Virus record (IMG/VR): IMGVR_UViG_3300042731_002987
Span: 1 to 43,733 of that record
Direction: 5' to 3' (one strand)
Origin: a virus
DNA length: 43,733 nt
Part shown: one piece after another, positions 9,813-43,733 of the stretch
Position numbering within the stretch: the first letter of the stretch is position 1
Layout of the letters: every line of letters starts with the position of its first letter
The notes under the pieces: model-generated
Database searches by the model: none
What the model saw: the letters and a program-made list of their open reading frames with translations, nothing else
Told to the model about the DNA's origin: nothing
Program-made: the position numbers and the translations under genes

Positions 9813-10223
9813 TCAAGCGTCTCTCAAGTCGTCGATGTCATTTCGGAGGCGGGCGATTTCTCCATTTAGAATGGCGATAGATCTCCTTCTCAATGCTTTT
9901 GCCAGAGCTTTTAGCTTATAGCGGTGCCTATATAACCGGATGTACTGGGAATAGCTTCCGATGATAGATTTCTCATCGTGCGTAAGCTTCCATTGACCAC
10001 GGACGACATGGAAAGCCTTTAGCTCCTCTGCGGTCATGTTAATAATGTCGGCAGCGCGGATCATAAGATCTGCTAGAATAGCGATTTGCGCGTCCTTCTC
10101 TGCGCAAGTTGCCGCAAGCCATGCGGCCTTCCAAGAGAAGTAATTGGCTGTGCCCTTGGCCTCGTTTGGATGGGCCTTCTCAAATTCCTCTGTAGCGAGG
10201 TCGCTATATTCCTGTGGAGTCAC
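9813..10223 (-). CDS. Paralogous small early protein, copy 1 (extended)
   Basis: A 136-residue protein, GTG start with AGGAGG 7 bases upstream. Residues 1-45 are unique (EEFEKAHPNEAKGTANYFSWKAAWLAAT resembles phage Ea22-type tails); the remainder matches the next upstream gene: DLMIRAADIINMTAEELKA, then KALAKALRRR. It also carries a 32-base DNA repeat shared with that gene. Predominantly helical. The family is unknown to me; tandem duplication followed by divergence is clear. Confidence 0.6.
   Translation of the reverse strand: MTPQEYSDLATEEFEKAHPNEAKGTANYFSWKAAWLAATCAEKDAQIAILADLMIRAADIINMTAEELKAFHVVRGQWKLTHDEKSIIGSYSQYIRLYRHRYKLKALAKALRRRSIAILNGEIARLRNDIDDLRDA
9883..9914 (-). repeat. 32-bp direct repeat, copy A
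   Basis: Identical to 10232-10263. It encodes the LKALAKALRRR end of the paralogous proteins, and perfect identity of the DNA indicates recent duplication or gene conversion. Confidence 0.85.
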
Positions 10224-10407
10224 CTTTAGCCCTCCTTCTCAATGCTTTTGCCAGAGCTTTTAGTTCGATGTAATTGGCGATGGCAGATTGATAATCGTGA
10301 GTAACCTTCCATTCTCCATTGACGACTTGGGAAGCCTTTGACTCCTCCGCGACCAAGTTAATAATGTCGGCGGCGCGGCTCATAAGATCTGCGTCATAGT
10401 CGTTCAT
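10204..10407 (-). CDS. Paralogous small early protein, copy 2
   Basis: A 67-residue protein starting MNDYDADLMSRAADII, with a strong AAGGAGGT 5 bases before ATG. The same helical core as copies 1 and 3 (ADLM-RAADIIN, KALAKALRRR). It overlaps the start of copy 1 by 20 bases. The shortest member defines the core module. No function assigned. Confidence 0.6.
   Translation of the reverse strand: MNDYDADLMSRAADIINLVAEESKASQVVNGEWKVTHDYQSAIANYIELKALAKALRRRAKGDSTGI
10232..10263 (-). repeat. 32-bp direct repeat, copy B
   Basis: Identical to 9883-9914, at the equivalent position of the second paralogue. Confidence 0.85.
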
Positions 10408-10410
10408 GTG

Positions 10411-10644
10411 TTACCTCCTTAGCGCGGCTATTTGACAGGCTCTTGCTTTGAGGATGGCGACAGTCTGCCGCATGCTGCGGTATGTAGTCACTAAGCCTGC
10501 TATATCCGTCTCACTGTATTGAGATCCCAGTCTAGAGAGCGGCTTCTGATACCAGCTTACATTGATCCCGGAAATATTCTGGAAGGCGTCAGCCTGTTCC
10601 TCAAGTACGTCCGCTGCTGCAATCATCAGATCACGATCATTCAT
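10411..10644 (-). CDS. Paralogous small early protein, copy 3 (divergent)
   Basis: A 77-residue protein starting MNDRDLMIAAADVLEEQ. It shares the D-LM-AAD- opening and a basic helical end (VAILKARACQIAALRR) with copies 1 and 2 but is otherwise diverged. GGAGG lies 9 bases before ATG; an adjacent GTG at 10647 is an alternative start. The start overlaps the stop of the upstream gene. Unknown function. Confidence 0.55.
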   Translation of the reverse strand: MNDRDLMIAAADVLEEQADAFQNISGINVSWYQKPLSRLGSQYSETDIAGLVTTYRSMRQTVAILKARACQIAALRR

Positions 10645-10843
10645 CACAAATATCCTCCAGTTGTCTAATTACGCCAGACACTGCTTTATTAAGCATTTCC
10701 CAGCGCCGTATAGCGATGAGCTGCGCAACGGCCTGGTCTGTCGTGTGACGGACACCTTCCCGCGGTTCCTGAATCTCTTGGATCTGTCTCTCGATAGCAG
10801 CCTGTAAAGCCAAGGCTGAGTCGAGCATCTCGTCCCATGTCAC
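10637..10843 (-). CDS. Small helical protein after the GSGYG ORF
   Basis: A 68-residue protein with GTG start at 10843, four bases after the stop of the GSGYG-repeat ORF, sequence (V/M)TWDEMLDSALALQAAIERQ then VAQLIAIRRWEML. The same frame is open upstream through the repeat (to 11122), where it would add about 93 residues of Ala/Thr/Pro repeat; I prefer the short form because that extension is only the repeat read in another frame. The stop overlaps the next start. Function unknown. Confidence 0.5.
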   Translation of the reverse strand: MTWDEMLDSALALQAAIERQIQEIQEPREGVRHTTDQAVAQLIAIRRWEMLNKAVSGVIRQLEDICDE

Positions 10844-10847
10844 AAAT

Positions 10848-11153
10848 CTAGCCGTTGCCGTAGCCGTCGCCGAAGCCGTAGCCGTCGCCGGAGCCGAAGC
10901 CGGAGCCGTAGCCAGAGCCGTAGCCGTAGCCGGAGCCGCCGGAGCCGAAGCCGGAGCCGAAGCCGGAGCCGAAGCCGTCGCCGGAGCCGTAGCCGGAGCC
11001 GGAGCCGTAGCCGGAGCCGTAGCCGGAGCCGTAGCCGGAGCCGTCGCCGCCGCCGTAGCCGGAGCCGTAGCCGGAGCCGTCGCCGCCGCCGTAGCCGGAG
11101 CCGTAGCCGGAGCCGTCGCCATCGCAGTTAGTGCTGTCTAGTCGATTACTCAT
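10848..11153 (-). CDS. GSGYG-repeat protein following the DUF6948-like gene
   Basis: A 101-residue ORF. ATG at 11153 overlaps the stop of the DUF6948-like gene (ATGAGTAA). After MSNRLDSTNCDGDG the protein is almost only Gly, Ser, Tyr, Asp and Phe (GSGYGSGYGGGDG). In other phages a similar GYGDGSGYG tail can follow or be fused to a DUF6948 domain, so this looks like a split version of that protein. No canonical ribosome site, but translational coupling is plausible. Alternative: the DNA is only a hexanucleotide expansion and is not translated in this frame. Confidence 0.5.
   Translation of the reverse strand: MSNRLDSTNCDGDGSGYGSGYGGGDGSGYGSGYGGGDGSGYGSGYGSGYGSGSGYGSGDGFGSGFGSGFGSGGSGYGYGSGYGSGFGSGDGYGFGDGYGNG
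10854..11122. repeat. GC-rich hexanucleotide repeat array
   Basis: About 270 bases built from GCCGGA, GCCGTA, GCCGTC and GCCGAA units. Long higher-order copies occur near 11041-11110. It keeps two minus-strand frames open at once. Such tracts are prone to copy-number change by slippage. Confidence 0.9.
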
Positions 11154-11523
11154 GGCAAGCATCAAACGTCTCGCGAGCCTTTTCCGATGTTGGTATTAGT
11201 TCGATTGCTTCCGTCAGCATGATCACTGGTGACTCGACAGATATGCGGCTTTTATCCGGATCAATACCATGTAAGGCTACTTCAGACAAAGTGAAAGCCC
11301 CGCCCCATTTCCATAGACGCCGAGAGTCACGCAAAAGAACAGCCCTGCCATCAACAGACTCAACAACCCCTAAATGGACCCCAGCTGAAAAAGTGCGGAC
11401 CACGCAATGGCGGCCAGAAAATGCCAGGGCGGGTGAGAAAGAAGGGGAAGAACTATCTTGATCAAGATCGTCTCTATCTTCAATGAGGTCGGCCAATCGT
11501 AATAGCTTTTGTAGGTTATTCAC
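11146..11523 (-). CDS. DUF6948-like protein
   Basis: A 125-residue protein. Residues about 38-105 carry the DUF6948 pattern: HCVVRTFSAGVHLGVVESVDG, AVLLRDSRRLWKWGGAFTLSE and, towards the end, IMLTEAIELIPTS. GTG start, GGAG nine bases upstream. DUF6948 proteins are common in phage early regions and their role is unknown. The first 35 residues (LADLIEDRDDLDQ, acidic) are an extra N-terminal segment. Coupled to the GSGYG ORF. Confidence 0.65.
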   Translation of the reverse strand: MNNLQKLLRLADLIEDRDDLDQDSSSPSFSPALAFSGRHCVVRTFSAGVHLGVVESVDGRAVLLRDSRRLWKWGGAFTLSEVALHGIDPDKSRISVESPVIMLTEAIELIPTSEKARETFDACHE

Positions 11524-19554: not shown

Positions 19555-19571
19555 GAAACTATGGTTGGAGG
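19555..19571 (+). repeat. 17-bp leader repeat, copy 1
   Basis: GAAACTATGGTTGGAGG, exactly repeated at 20905-20921. In both places its GGAGG end is the ribosome site of the following small gene. Confidence 0.85.
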
Positions 19572-19575
19572 AAAT

Positions 19576-19779
19576 ATGGCAAATTCAAACATTTTACTCT
19601 GGGCAAACAAGAACGAACAAAAGCATGAGTTTGTGCCACATGACAAACGGTATCTATCGATAGACAGCGCTGAACCACATTGCAGTAAATCGGTAAAATA
19701 CCTTAATAGGCAAGATAATACCCGGTATCGTTGCAAGCATGATTATAGTGAATATGGAATAGTAGAGGAAAAGGCATGA
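19576..19779 (+). CDS. Small basic hypothetical protein
   Basis: A 67-residue protein starting MANSNILLWANKNEQKHEF. ATG at 19576 follows the GGAGG of the 17-base leader repeat; a start at 19561 inside that repeat is rejected. Contains His and Cys residues (PHCSKSV, RYRCKHDY) that could bind a metal. The end overlaps the next start by 4 bases. Confidence 0.5.
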   Translation: MANSNILLWANKNEQKHEFVPHDKRYLSIDSAEPHCSKSVKYLNRQDNTRYRCKHDYSEYGIVEEKA

Positions 19780-19899: not shown

Positions 19900-20904
19900 A
19901 TGAAAACCATGCACATGTTTGCCGGAGCTGGAGGCGGCATGCTTGCGGATCTGATACTTGGTCACCAGCCTATGGTAGCCATAGAGTGGGATCATTACTG
20001 TTGTGAAGTTCTCAGAGAGAAAGCAGAAGATGGATGGTTTCCTGGATTGCACGTGTTCGAAGGAGACGCCAGGCTGTTCCCTGCATCCGATTGGGCGGGA
20101 CGAGTGGATTGCATCCATGCAGGATTCCCTTGTCAGCCTTTTAGCCTTGCCGGAAGTCGAAAGGGCTCGGAAGATGAGCGCGACATGTGGCCAATCACGC
20201 TCGATACCATTCGGACGATACAACCAAAATGGGTCTTTCTCGAAAACGTCCCTGGGCTTGTTTCCTGGAACGGAGGTGAGCGGGTGGCCCACATCGTCGG
20301 GGAACTGGCCGGGCTGGGCTACATGGGATCTCACGGCGTGCTGGGAGCTGTCGACGTGGGCGCTCCGCACAGGCGGAAACGATGGTGGTTGCTTGCAAGG
20401 CGTGCCGACACCACAAGCTCGAGACGGCGATCATCGGGGAGCACAATCGAAACGATATTGGAATCCAAAGCGCAGCAACGATTTACCAGACTATGTGGCG
20501 GCAATGTGGCAGACTCCAGTCGCAGACGATGCGGTGGAGAGAAAAGTCGGAAAGTACAACAGTCGCGGAGAGCCGAAACTGTCGGCGCAGGTGAAGATGT
20601 TCCCGACACCGACCACCAGCGGATTGAATGGTGGAAGCAACAGCAGAAACGCAGCCAAGGCGAGAGGGACCTGGCCGACACCAACAATACATGGCAATTA
20701 CAATCGCGTAGGAGCGAGCAAGTCAAGCGGGGACGGATTAGCGACAGCGGTAGGGGTAAAGGCGAATGGTGGGCAACTGAATCCGACGTGGGTCGAGTGG
20801 CTAATGGCGTGGCCTCTCGCGTGGACAGAATTAAGGCGCTCGGTAATGGGCAAGTCCCGCTCCAAGCGGCGCTAGCGTGGGTGATGTTAGGAGGTCCGCT
20901 TTGA
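19900..20904 (+). CDS. dcm: C5-cytosine DNA methyltransferase (Dcm family)
   Basis: A 334-residue enzyme that methylates cytosine at C5. Motif I FAGAGGG (residues 7-13, SAM binding), motif IV GFPCQPFS with catalytic Cys 78, motif VI ENVPG (115-119), motif VIII VGAPHRRKRWW (near 165), target-recognition region about 180-285, and motifs IX-X near the end (DRIKALGNGQVPLQAALAW). All catalytic motifs are intact, so it is probably active and protects phage DNA from host restriction. No partner restriction enzyme is present. Most of its length is overlapped by another ORF in the +1 frame (20030-20875). Target sequence not predictable. Confidence 0.9.
   Translation: MKTMHMFAGAGGGMLADLILGHQPMVAIEWDHYCCEVLREKAEDGWFPGLHVFEGDARLFPASDWAGRVDCIHAGFPCQPFSLAGSRKGSEDERDMWPITLDTIRTIQPKWVFLENVPGLVSWNGGERVAHIVGELAGLGYMGSHGVLGAVDVGAPHRRKRWWLLARRADTTSSRRRSSGSTIETILESKAQQRFTRLCGGNVADSSRRRCGGEKSRKVQQSRRAETVGAGEDVPDTDHQRIEWWKQQQKRSQGERDLADTNNTWQLQSRRSEQVKRGRISDSGRGKGEWWATESDVGRVANGVASRVDRIKALGNGQVPLQAALAWVMLGGPL
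20030..20875 (+). CDS. Alternative-frame gene nested in dcm (LNPTWVEWLM family)
   Basis: A 281-residue frame entirely inside dcm, ATG at 20030 (GTG at 20003 possible). It is not random: it reads CTCSKETPGCSLHP, DEWIASMQDSLVSLLALPEV, a TWDLTACWELS-WALRTGG segment, several WPTPT/VPTPQ boxes and GGQLNPTWVEWLMAWPLAW near its end. I recognise this set as a protein family found on its own beside cytosine methyltransferases in many phages. The dcm frame over the same bases is also fully conserved, so both appear to be coding. Function unknown. Alternative: the family elsewhere is itself only an over-annotated shadow of dcm. Confidence 0.55.
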   Translation: MDGFLDCTCSKETPGCSLHPIGRDEWIASMQDSLVSLLALPEVERARKMSATCGQSRSIPFGRYNQNGSFSKTSLGLFPGTEVSGWPTSSGNWPGWATWDLTACWELSTWALRTGGNDGGCLQGVPTPQARDGDHRGAQSKRYWNPKRSNDLPDYVAAMWQTPVADDAVERKVGKYNSRGEPKLSAQVKMFPTPTTSGLNGGSNSRNAAKARGTWPTPTIHGNYNRVGASKSSGDGLATAVGVKANGGQLNPTWVEWLMAWPLAWTELRRSVMGKSRSKRR

Positions 20905-20921
20905 GAAACTATGGTTGGAGG
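20905..20921 (+). repeat. 17-bp leader repeat, copy 2
   Basis: Exact copy of 19555-19571, here supplying the ribosome site for the gene at 20926. The two copies bracket the dcm locus and the two small genes before it. Confidence 0.85.
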
Positions 20922-20925
20922 TTTT

Positions 20926-21183
20926 ATGAGTAAAGATATGAGTGCGGCGCTTGAGAAGGCTCATAGAGTTGCGAAAGAGAAGCGTGAAAAGAGACTTGCT
21001 GAAGGACTATCCGCAAATATGTCACCAGATGAGAAAGCGGACGCGTATCCTTCTTCACTAAAGAGAGCAATCGTTGCTATGTGCTACTAGTGTATGGGTA
21101 GAGAGCCAGGATGGAGACAAATGGTGAATGATTGCACAGCCACTGGGTGCGCTTTATTTAAACATAGACCGAAAAGACGATGA
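20926..21183 (+). CDS. Small zinc-binding phage protein interrupted by an in-frame amber codon
   Basis: An 86-codon frame starting MSKDMSAALEKAHRVAKEK, with TAG at 21088-21090. Before it: SSLKRAIVAMCY; after it in the same frame: CMGREPGWRQMVNDCTATGC then ALFKHRPKRR. The pieces together match a common phage family with KAI-AKCY-x-CMG ... C-x4-C-LY--RP, where x is usually an acidic or polar residue. A change of CAG or GAG to TAG would give this. Strong ribosome site from the 17-base leader. Either a nonsense mutation, readthrough, or two separate peptides (54 residues, and 20 residues from ATG 21121 with GGAG upstream). Confidence 0.55.
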
Positions 21184-23889: not shown

Positions 23890-24270
23890 ATGGCTCTAGC
23901 ACAACCTACAGCGATTCATAAACTTAAAGGATCATACGAAAGGAATCCTGAGCGGGAAAACAAGAAAGAGCCCATGCCTAAAGGTGAGGCAGGAGATCCG
24001 CCAGATGAGCTCACAGACGCCGAGAAGGCGGCCTGGTATGAAGTCCTCAAATATGCCCCGCCCGGGGTGATATTCGACTCTGACAGGCTTGCCCTCGAGG
24101 GTCTAGCGAAGCTGATCGTGGAAATGCGGGAACTGGGGACCAAGTTTAACCCTGCCAAGATAGGCCGATTCCAGGGGTTTCTGGCCCATTTTGGGATGAC
24201 GCCATCCTCGAGGTCTAAGATTGTGGCAGTCAAGAGGCCTGGTGAGGACGATCCGTGGTCGAAGCTATGA
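23890..24270 (+). CDS. terS: Terminase small subunit (P27 family)
   Basis: A 126-residue protein. PPDELTDAEKAAWYEVLKYAP near residue 37 and the ending FGMTPSSRSKIVAVKRP are the P27-type small terminase pattern. It recognises the packaging site and hands DNA to TerL. It starts after a 115-base spacer that may contain the packaging site. Separated from TerL by an inserted methyltransferase. Confidence 0.8.
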   Translation: MALAQPTAIHKLKGSYERNPERENKKEPMPKGEAGDPPDELTDAEKAAWYEVLKYAPPGVIFDSDRLALEGLAKLIVEMRELGTKFNPAKIGRFQGFLAHFGMTPSSRSKIVAVKRPGEDDPWSKL

Positions 24271-24941
24271 GGCCCAGAGTGCAGTTGTTGCACATAGACT
24301 GCATGGAGTATATGCGCGGTTTGCCGGACAACGCGTTTGATCTTGCCATCGTCGATCCGCCTTATGGAATAGGGCAAAGTGGCGAGAATAATTATAGACG
24401 CAATAATTTGGCGGTTGCAACAAACTACAAGCCATTTTATGGTGGAGACCTGTCGCCGCCAGAGGTGGAATACTTTCATGAACTGTTTCGCGTGAGCATA
24501 AATCAGATCATATGGGGGGCGAATCATTTTATCGATAGAATCAATAAGCCTTCCCCATGTTGGATTGTATGGGACAAGGATAACGGGGCAGACTTTGCTG
24601 CTGATAGTGAGCTTGCGTGGACAAGTTTTAAAACAGCAGTGAAAAATTTTAGGTTTAGATGGCAAGGCATGTTGCAAGGAAATATGTATAACAAGGAAGC
24701 AAGAATCCATCCAACCCAAAAACCAGTTGCGCTATATAAGTGGTTACTAATGAAGTACTCCAAGCCAGGAGAAAATATTCTCGATACGCATATGGGTAGC
24801 GGTTCAAGTGCTATTGCGGCGAAGCAATTTGGATGTGACTTTGTTGGGTGCGAGATTGATAAGTATTATTACGATAAAGCGGTTGATCGCTTCAATAATG
24901 AGACATCTCAGGTAGAACTGCCATTAGCGCAACCGCTGTAG
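24267..24941 (+). CDS. DNA adenine-N6 or cytosine-N4 methyltransferase
   Basis: A 224-residue beta-class methyltransferase. DPPYGIG (catalytic motif IV, residues 30-36) comes before the SAM-binding GSGSSAIAAKQFGCDFVG motif near the C-terminus, the order of the beta class. RIHPTQKP near residue 150 is the conserved step before motif I. The motif I region reads DTHMGSGS where many have DPF-GSG. No restriction partner. It overlaps TerS by 4 bases and runs into the TerL coding region, so it has been inserted between the two terminase subunits. It likely provides anti-restriction at packaging. Confidence 0.85.
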   Translation: MRPRVQLLHIDCMEYMRGLPDNAFDLAIVDPPYGIGQSGENNYRRNNLAVATNYKPFYGGDLSPPEVEYFHELFRVSINQIIWGANHFIDRINKPSPCWIVWDKDNGADFAADSELAWTSFKTAVKNFRFRWQGMLQGNMYNKEARIHPTQKPVALYKWLLMKYSKPGENILDTHMGSGSSAIAAKQFGCDFVGCEIDKYYYDKAVDRFNNETSQVELPLAQPL

Positions 24942-43600: not shown

Positions 43601-43733
43601 TACAACAGAGGCGGTATACAGACAGCTAACAGCAGGAACGCATAATTTCTGGGTGAAGGCACATGACGCAAAGAGAGCATCAGATAATGCTACTCATGCG
43701 ATTCTTGTAATAGAGGGACCGAGGGCTGCTTCC
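40605..43733 (+). CDS. J: Tail tip protein J (host-specificity protein), N-terminal 1043 codons; continues at position 1
   Basis: Large tail-tip protein of the lambda gpJ type. It closes the tail tube and carries receptor-binding parts. It begins MTAQVTHCPHPV and overlaps the stop of the NlpC/P60-like gene by ATGA. Residues about 85-125 hold two hydrophobic glycine/alanine-rich stretches, as in other J proteins, followed by the conserved region with RIRLNQPMPLIYG. The parts I translated, at the start and at the right end, contain no stop. Joined through the terminal overlap with 1-1047 the protein is 1368 residues, somewhat longer than lambda gpJ (1132). The C-terminal third contains fibronectin III-like modules (one begins near APPSDVTGF). 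The order chaperone, tape measure, M, L, K-like, J is the lambda order. Receptor specificity is not predictable from sequence alone. Confidence 0.9.
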   Translation, partial: MTAQVTHCPHPVLSQEGRVVREIEILPRETIGSVLSRCHIDVDAGQFVVSVNGNVTEDMGLIVSHGDMVAIRAIVEGGGDSDPLRVILSLAVVVAAPYLGGYVGGYWASQAATAGVAALTVVGGYALVNSIIPPGHKATALSSQQDETSPTYNLSGARNRIRLNQPMPLIYGTHKFVPDLAMKPYTEIRNGDLYLFVVYGMGLSLEATFTDFKIGDTPLSSYKDVEVEWSDYNGRLSKFAGNVDTLDVGSELNAAAGWVTRTTSDDTRILAIDIVGTLYHVADNGDLDYHNVKFDGEYRKVGAAEWTSFFYDTEELFHDYYWSAGYTPEGKPGLPGGAFWVQVAYGDTDPNEHTEGEEWGTITDEGYDYFAPASATHTVTWTYRHFDAAGDDPTPTRRYYASIDSIIISNNTTKAVRVSRQRYVEAGQYEVRLRRNSPEDDNDRYQSSFTWSVLRSYQRDESDYTGQRRLGLIIRASEQISGVVDTLSCIASAKIPVFVDEVWNRLYTSNPAWAFLNVALGKSHTDGRRLYGGGLHPSRIDYDSIIDFAAWCDEKGWTFDYVFDKTEPVESMLTTIAMAGRGAYTWASGKLGVIWDEERLPAVAMYGMPNIVAGSFTVKYLSAPGVDAIECNYLDAANDYQAQTIRADVPNAQGTGNVARKDLAGVTSKAVANRHANLIAAEQYYRRRRISWETDLEGMVCTRGDVIRLSHDLTQWGYSGRLLAGSTINGVSIITLDRDVPFTEGQDHWVMLRQPNGTYDHYQVYNYSGSVNRSLIRLQTNPPLLPDQDVYNSSYDYVWFYEPSTTPGKNAKIIDLSPVNERQIRIVATDEVNQFYDSEYNPTWEPPQNEYYGPVPAVNGIDVTEVLLSKAGQSECNLYFDIENAIGVRLRIKRNDESWRDYGEIRGTDWSGRYQQGDVLQIEAKPWAVAVTLASATFIKTYNVLGKLAPPSDVTGFYAEIWNQNIRLRWNPIPDVDVEFYEVRYGASWEDGVTIAQGLTTEAVYRQLTAGTHNFWVKAHDAKRASDNATHAILVIEGPRAAS
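43665..43733. repeat. Right copy of 69-bp terminal overlap
   Basis: Exact copy of 1-69. It lies inside the J reading frame. The non-redundant genome length is therefore 43664 bp. Confidence 0.9.

Follow-up and report, generated by a model that had tools for sequence, protein, structure and literature searches.

A probable two-subunit C5-cytosine DNA methyltransferase encoded by overlapping genes in a tailed-phage dcm locus

Introduction

Lee, Kam and Shaw reportedly found in 1995 that the small gene of M.EcoHK31I is encoded within the large gene in a different frame and that both are required. One polypeptide of this enzyme contains conserved motifs I–VIII and X and the other contains motif IX, while the predicted target-recognition domain (TRD) has been placed in the large subunit (PMC3404938). 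M.AquI is likewise a two-polypeptide C5 enzyme, broken in the variable region (PMC3404938). Among phages, coding potential in both frames has been noted for the methylase pairs of Cluster O mycobacteriophages (Corndog 6/7 and Firecracker 5/6), for which a frameshift, a hop or two products were left as options (PMC4351075). Outside these sources, no paper naming such an arrangement was found in the open-licence literature on phage dcm overlaps, nor did the open-licence literature searched yield frame-by-frame constraint, an assignment of the TRD to the +1 frame or an account of the breadth of the family.

The locus described here lies in a viral DNA of 43,733 nucleotides (IMG/VR record IMGVR_UViG_3300042731_002987), analysed as a whole and referred to below as the window. 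As in M.EcoHK31I and M.EaeI, its large polypeptide (alpha) contains motifs I–VIII and X and lacks motif IX, which, as in M.EcoHK31I, is found in a small predicted polypeptide (beta) of an overlapping alternative frame. Unlike M.EcoHK31I, which was compared by description only, the window has a TRD region that is constrained solely in the small +1 subunit, and its methyltransferase is taken to be a solitary phage gene. The small subunit of M.AquI has both motifs IX and X, whereas motif X of the window lies in alpha; Firecracker-type relatives (L195) are nearer to the M.AquI split than the window type is. In Cluster O, an alpha-like gene similarly shares sequence with a +1 gene that encodes C-terminal parts of a methyltransferase, but motif X belongs to the +1 gene and the overlap is shorter. 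A closer parallel in position is gene 51 of Paenibacillus larvae phage Redbud, which lies within gene 50 at the same +1 offset in dcm and is homologous to beta; its annotation goes no further than an internal hypothetical gene, or a second methyltransferase in sister phages, and gives no function. The families to which the two products belong, phrog_363 (alpha) and phrog_1008 (beta), are both labelled DNA methyltransferase, a label that is silent on their being overlapping frames of one locus. The two-polypeptide kind of enzyme is already known from M.EcoHK31I and M.AquI, and the present locus is probably a further case of a kind that is far more widespread than annotated.

Two open frames in one locus

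The dcm ORF (19900–20904, plus strand) encodes the 334-residue alpha subunit, which contains C5-cytosine DNA methyltransferase motifs I–VIII and X and matches PF00145 (E 9e-39) and phrog_363. Its +1 frame is open for 296 codons (19985–20875) and matches phrog_1008 (E 6e-24); the beta gene, delimited by the stop-depletion boundary discussed below and containing 0 stops, is placed at 20117–20875 on the same strand. A preliminary description of this DNA had taken the +1 product for a recognizable phage protein and its opening for more than chance. The family match agrees with the former, the boxes that had been listed being present in order, and synonymous shuffling agrees with the latter, since not one of 5000 shuffles of the window's dcm kept 20090–20872 free of stops, of which there were 5.6 on average, and +1 runs among them reached 295 codons at most, against the 296 observed.

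The same depletion extends across the family. In 105 non-redundant loci, clustered at 75% nucleotide identity, the +1 frame contains 0 stops against 396.6 expected from synonymous shuffles of alpha, and the +2 frame contains 1221 against 1173 expected. Because these loci had originally been found with beta, the test was repeated on 80 loci retrieved with an alpha-only query, all of which proved to be open (0 +1 stops against 241.3 expected). The control, 169 flanking ORFs, contained 1723 +1 stops against 1709.8 expected, with none stop-free.

Substitutions in 23 disjoint close pairs of loci assign the constraint to one frame or the other, region by region. In motifs I–VIII, the counts at alpha codon positions 1/2/3 are 239/84/502, resembling those of the flanking genes (183/84/441). 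From motif VIII to the motif X segment they are 539/152/105, which becomes 152/105/539 in the beta frame, as is normal for a coding gene; in the C-terminal segment the counts at alpha positions are 95/48/99. Overlap-aware dN/dS on the same pairs (with 95% bootstrap over pairs) is 1.16 (0.97–1.55) for alpha and 0.11 (0.08–0.16) for beta in the middle, or TRD, region. In the catalytic overlap it is 0.12 for alpha and 0.34 for beta, the beta figure being possibly an underestimate, as the constraint on alpha is not the same at all codon positions; in the C-terminal region it is 0.30 and 0.29, both frames being constrained at motif IX. Alpha between motifs VIII and X thus evolves neutrally, and does so family-wide. 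In a comparison of the window with a locus from a Magnetovibrio assembly (L286), the middle is 69% identical in the beta frame and 49% in the alpha frame, with differences of 19/24/43 at beta positions 1/2/3.

It could be argued that the +1 frame is a shadow ORF, open only through dcm codon usage. Its relatives do lie inside dcm ORFs, the very observation that the preliminary description had named as pointing to a shadow ORF if frame-specific constraint were missing, and part of the +1 similarity over motifs IV–VIII stems from the conservation of alpha: a held-out profile of the beta N-terminus scores 110 bits against 73 for synonymous shuffles, with 98 of the 105 loci above every shuffle. The corresponding profile of the TRD and motif IX, however, scores 110 bits against 15 for shuffles, with all 105 loci above every shuffle. 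Codon usage also leaves unexplained the 0 stops where 397 and 241 were expected, with flanking controls at expectation, and a beta dN/dS of 0.11 exactly where alpha is neutral. The shadow-ORF reading is refuted by this frame-specific constraint, and its probability is practically nil. The overlap is real and both frames are genuine, as had been proposed for the window and as is borne out by the 105 loci without a +1 stop.

The catalytic half

Every element of a C5-cytosine DNA methyltransferase catalytic domain that was looked for, namely motifs I, IV (Pro-Cys), VI (ENV) and VIII, is present in alpha. Its large catalytic, S-adenosylmethionine (SAM)-binding domain (19900–20409, plus strand; dN/dS 0.12) includes FAGAGG, GFPCQPFS, ENV and GAPHRRKR, and in motif IV (GFPCQ, 20122–20136) with its catalytic Pro-Cys, residues G75, P77 and C78 are invariant (alignments A2 and A6). 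By sequence (phmmer), the similarity to M.HhaI covers residues 4–171, motifs I–VIII only (E 5e-17); by structure, the alpha model aligns with about 170 columns of M.HhaI (E 8e-15), and the best PDB matches span the same part. In the AlphaFold model, this domain has a pLDDT of 80–98 in 10-residue blocks.

Beyond it lies a central linker with ADT/VPDT/LADT repeats (20413–20799, plus strand), open and unconstrained in the alpha frame and predicted to be disordered from about residue 190 to 300 (pLDDT mostly below 50 over residues 191–300). Order returns at the C-terminus, where a helix is modelled at residues 307–329 and the final blocks reach a pLDDT of 93–96. Motif X (ALGNGQVP, 20833–20859, plus strand) lies in this helical region, in which dN/dS is 0.30; G315 and V319 are invariant and N316 and P320 nearly so.

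With the matches confined to motifs I–VIII and residues 190–300 disordered, alpha appears to lack a recognition domain and motif IX of its own; neither was found in the alpha polypeptide, in which the stretch between motifs VIII and X is disordered by AlphaFold and neutral by dN/dS. The earlier view that the dcm frame keeps every methyltransferase motif does not hold in this respect, as motif IX is found in the +1 frame and the folded recognition domain is missing from frame 0. The Pfam model PF00145 stops at motif VIII, and neither in artificial alpha–beta chimeras nor in single-chain relatives did it extend to the TRD, motif IX or motif X.

The probable recognition half

Three parts can be distinguished in beta, all on the plus strand. 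The N-terminal segment (20117–20407) lies over alpha motifs IV–VIII and is recovered by a held-out profile. The TRD region follows (20408–20776), with the PTP boxes VPTPQ, WQTPV, FPTPT and WPTPT and a beta dN/dS of 0.11, and then a box of the form L-N-P-x-W-V-E-W-L-M-G-W/F-P, which in the window is LNPTWVEWLMAWPLAWTEL (20777–20833) and overlaps the GRVANGV..RVDR segment of alpha. In an alignment of 82 sequences, P, E, W and M of this box are invariant, and both frames are constrained here. LNPTWVEWLM is assigned to motif IX by its position and signature, since it occupies in the +1 frame the place that motif IX has in single-chain relatives; no significant match to an enzyme of solved structure was obtained, a motif IX/X profile reaching DNA methyltransferase 4onj at E 1.5 only.

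The relation of beta to the enzyme is revealed by mycobacteriophages Shauna1 (gp67) and Nimbo (gp63), in which the N-terminal part of alpha, the TRD with its PTP boxes, motif IX and motif X follow one another in a single frame. Aligned to this single chain with hhalign, alpha falls on columns 31–216 (E 3e-40) and beta on columns 300–381 (E 4e-8). Since they are fused in frame behind the same catalytic domain in these phages, the TRD and motif IX of beta are, as judged from such homology, an original part of the enzyme and not the product of an overprinted birth. The beta N-terminal segment was not found in Shauna1 or Nimbo and is probably overprinted. Taken by region, in-frame homologues exist for the TRD and motif IX, none was found for the beta N-terminus, and the alpha linker is neutral, so that overprinted parts look limited to the beta N-terminus and the alpha central linker. 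The earlier suggestion of a gene born by overprinting within dcm, whose relatives separated later, may therefore be kept for these two parts; it does not apply to the TRD and motif IX.

Profiles and models add little to this picture. Beta has no match in Pfam or NCBIfam, its profile retrieved nothing useful from PDB sequences, and its AlphaFold model is of low confidence (pLDDT 57, pTM 0.32), with no PDB fold matched by Foldseek, for which reason no fold is claimed for the TRD. The missing Pfam and NCBIfam matches, together with an N-terminus that has no counterpart in single-chain enzymes, would suit a protein unrelated to the enzyme, such as an anti-restriction factor, that was overprinted on dcm and has no more than the overlap in common with it. 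Such a protein would not be expected to show homology to precisely the half that the enzyme lacks, namely the TRD and motif IX, next to an alpha without either, and we consider this explanation very improbable. Beta is best read as the DNA-recognition half of the methyltransferase, a role suggested by its alignment to the single-chain enzymes.

Start of the beta gene

Resolved by codon, +1 stops across the family are about as frequent as expected in the upstream part and disappear some 10 codons before motif IV, which suggests that the conserved beta begins later than GTG 20003, near 20105–20117 in the window. ATG 20117 is likely to be the best start candidate there, with ATT 20108, ATG 20030 and GTG 20003 as alternatives. 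A beta-frame start codon is found at codons -8 to -2 in 90 of 100 loci against 70.7 expected. Shine–Dalgarno-like matches of at least 4 at the internal start show a modest excess (49 loci against 35.5 expected from synonymous shuffles, a comparison that allows less than the raw counts seem to), and such support is weak in the window's own clade. In that clade, +1 stops over codons -36 to -2 number 0 against 4.3 expected. The cysteine-rich CTCS..GCS..HP stretch lies upstream of the family stop boundary and mostly mirrors conserved alpha residues. The overlap of about 850 bases described earlier is thus real as a long overlap, although its conserved part, as bounded by the +1 stops, is shorter, and the functional overlap of alpha and beta, given the probable later start, is probably about 760 nt.

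Relatives and distribution

Searches with the +1 protein (tblastn) retrieved Paenibacillus larvae phages, Acinetobacter phage ABMM1, a Lacticaseibacillus phage, plasmids and many IMG/VR contigs. When loci were scanned with four profiles (alpha motifs I–VIII, alpha motif X, beta N-terminus and beta TRD/IX), the alpha parts were in frame 0 and the beta parts in +1 in 184 of 198 loci, and the same pattern was found in 72 of 80 loci from bacterial and archaeal assemblies, some contigs having come up in more than one scan. Taxa of the assembly loci include Pseudomonadota, Bacillota, Verrucomicrobia and Planctomycetota.

Stand-alone relatives encoded beside phage methyltransferases, on which the preliminary description had drawn, were not encountered: apart from a few fragments, the beta relatives that were fetched are contained in a dcm ORF, with the same +1 offset. 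The loci without the alpha catalytic part, 5 viral and 3 from genomes, are contig-end fragments or remnants such as L033, and no stand-alone beta gene was seen among the fetched relatives beyond these.

Another split is found in Firecracker, Juno112, Euratis and Eidsmoe, in which the TRD, motif IX and motif X are all in the +1 frame, and the TRD and motif X are likewise in +1 in IMG/VR loci such as L013, L045, L089, L113 and L231. In all of these a single +1 shift would complete the chain, which is in keeping with the proposal that ribosomes leave the alpha frame after motif VIII and continue in +1, by frameshifting or bypass, to yield one polypeptide; a frameshift or hop was also kept possible for Cluster O (PMC4351075). 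In the window type, however, motif X belongs to frame 0 and is under constraint in that frame (alpha dN/dS 0.30), which requires translation of alpha right to its end. The +1 frame is also stop-free across motifs IV–VIII, although a shift after motif VIII would make no such demand on it. Frameshifting is therefore regarded as unlikely for this type, and two separate polypeptides are preferred.

Several relatives show features of their own. In Propionibacterium phage B22 gp50 (L204), which is single-chain, the Pro-Cys of motif IV has an intein-like interruption (CFVAGTSVL...VVHNC). The Paenibacillus polymyxa plasmid pAP1 (L006, 2290–2520) contains the motif IX box twice in the +1 frame, as LNPTWVECLMGF and LNPAWVECLMGF, possibly an internal duplication of the TRD/IX region. 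A short alpha/beta pair in L209 (2010–2732) has a strongly reduced beta TRD/IX (MMMWPTDYTAL) and is possibly a decaying or minimal variant. The prophage-type copy in Escherichia coli PT62 (L366, 1501–2238) is 94.5% identical to Salmonella phage S9-5; RefSeq lists only alpha for this copy, and the annotation of S9-5 does likewise.

Proposed enzyme, its history and significance

The dcm locus probably encodes a two-subunit C5-cytosine DNA methyltransferase from overlapping genes, similar to M.EcoHK31I. From the computed dual coding, the constraint by frame and the in-frame fusion in relatives, we infer that alpha, read in frame 0, would bind SAM and perform the chemistry with motifs I–VIII, followed by a passive disordered linker and motif X. 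Beta would be translated from the same message in the +1 frame, from an internal start near alpha motif IV, and would provide the TRD and motif IX that read the DNA sequence; the two would then assemble into one active heterodimer, as in M.EcoHK31I. Phage methyltransferases give protection from host restriction, and the role of this enzyme is most likely the methylation of phage (and host) DNA, by which restriction would be avoided.

As alpha needs its C-terminal motif X, the TRD region has to be read through in a frame without selected information, which accounts for a centre that is neutral and disordered. The enzyme may once have been contiguous, with frame changes around the TRD and subsequent mutual overprinting, in which the alpha linker would have arisen over the beta TRD and the beta N-terminus over alpha motifs IV–VIII. 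Shauna1 might be a re-fusion, having kept an alpha-like linker before the TRD. A broader proposal, to which we give an even chance, is that dual-coded C5 methyltransferases form a pan-phage class, with either frame ancestral in those parts where its partner is overprinted. Catalysis would be in frame 0 and DNA specificity wholly in +1, with the alpha centre as a neutral read-through linker; specificity could then change while the catalytic protein stays as it is, and in many phages, prophages and plasmids standard annotation would overlook the small subunit.

What was a suspected shadow ORF becomes a well-supported case, in tailed phages, of a long overlap on the same strand for which the constraint on each of the two frames has been measured, and a testable answer is offered to the puzzle of the Cluster O mycobacteriophages. 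Many phage and prophage entries named 'DNA cytosine methyltransferase', such as the alpha-only entries of E. coli PT62 and Salmonella phage S9-5, probably describe half an enzyme, and alpha cloned alone would be expected to yield a protein that is inactive or lacks specificity. Methods for the detection of overlapping genes could also be tested on these loci as natural cases.

Genome context

The window is the genome of a tailed phage with terminase, portal, major head and tape-measure genes. Its ends are identical 69-bp direct repeats (1–69 and 43665–43733), which suggests a complete, circularly assembled genome. A 24-nt leader repeat resembling a ribosome-binding site (GAAACTATGGTTGGAGGnnnTATG; 19555–19578 and 20905–20928) brackets the dcm region, the first copy lying just before a small ORF upstream of dcm and the second right after dcm. 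A second DNA methyltransferase gene (24255–24941; phrog_67, E 6.5e-49) is found just before the terminase gene. Duplicated segments at 9878–10073 and 10227–10392 (95% and 82% identical) lie beside a gene for an Erf-like annealing protein, and a long array of 12-nt-based tandem repeats (10826–11154) falls largely within a reverse-strand ORF (10637–11122).
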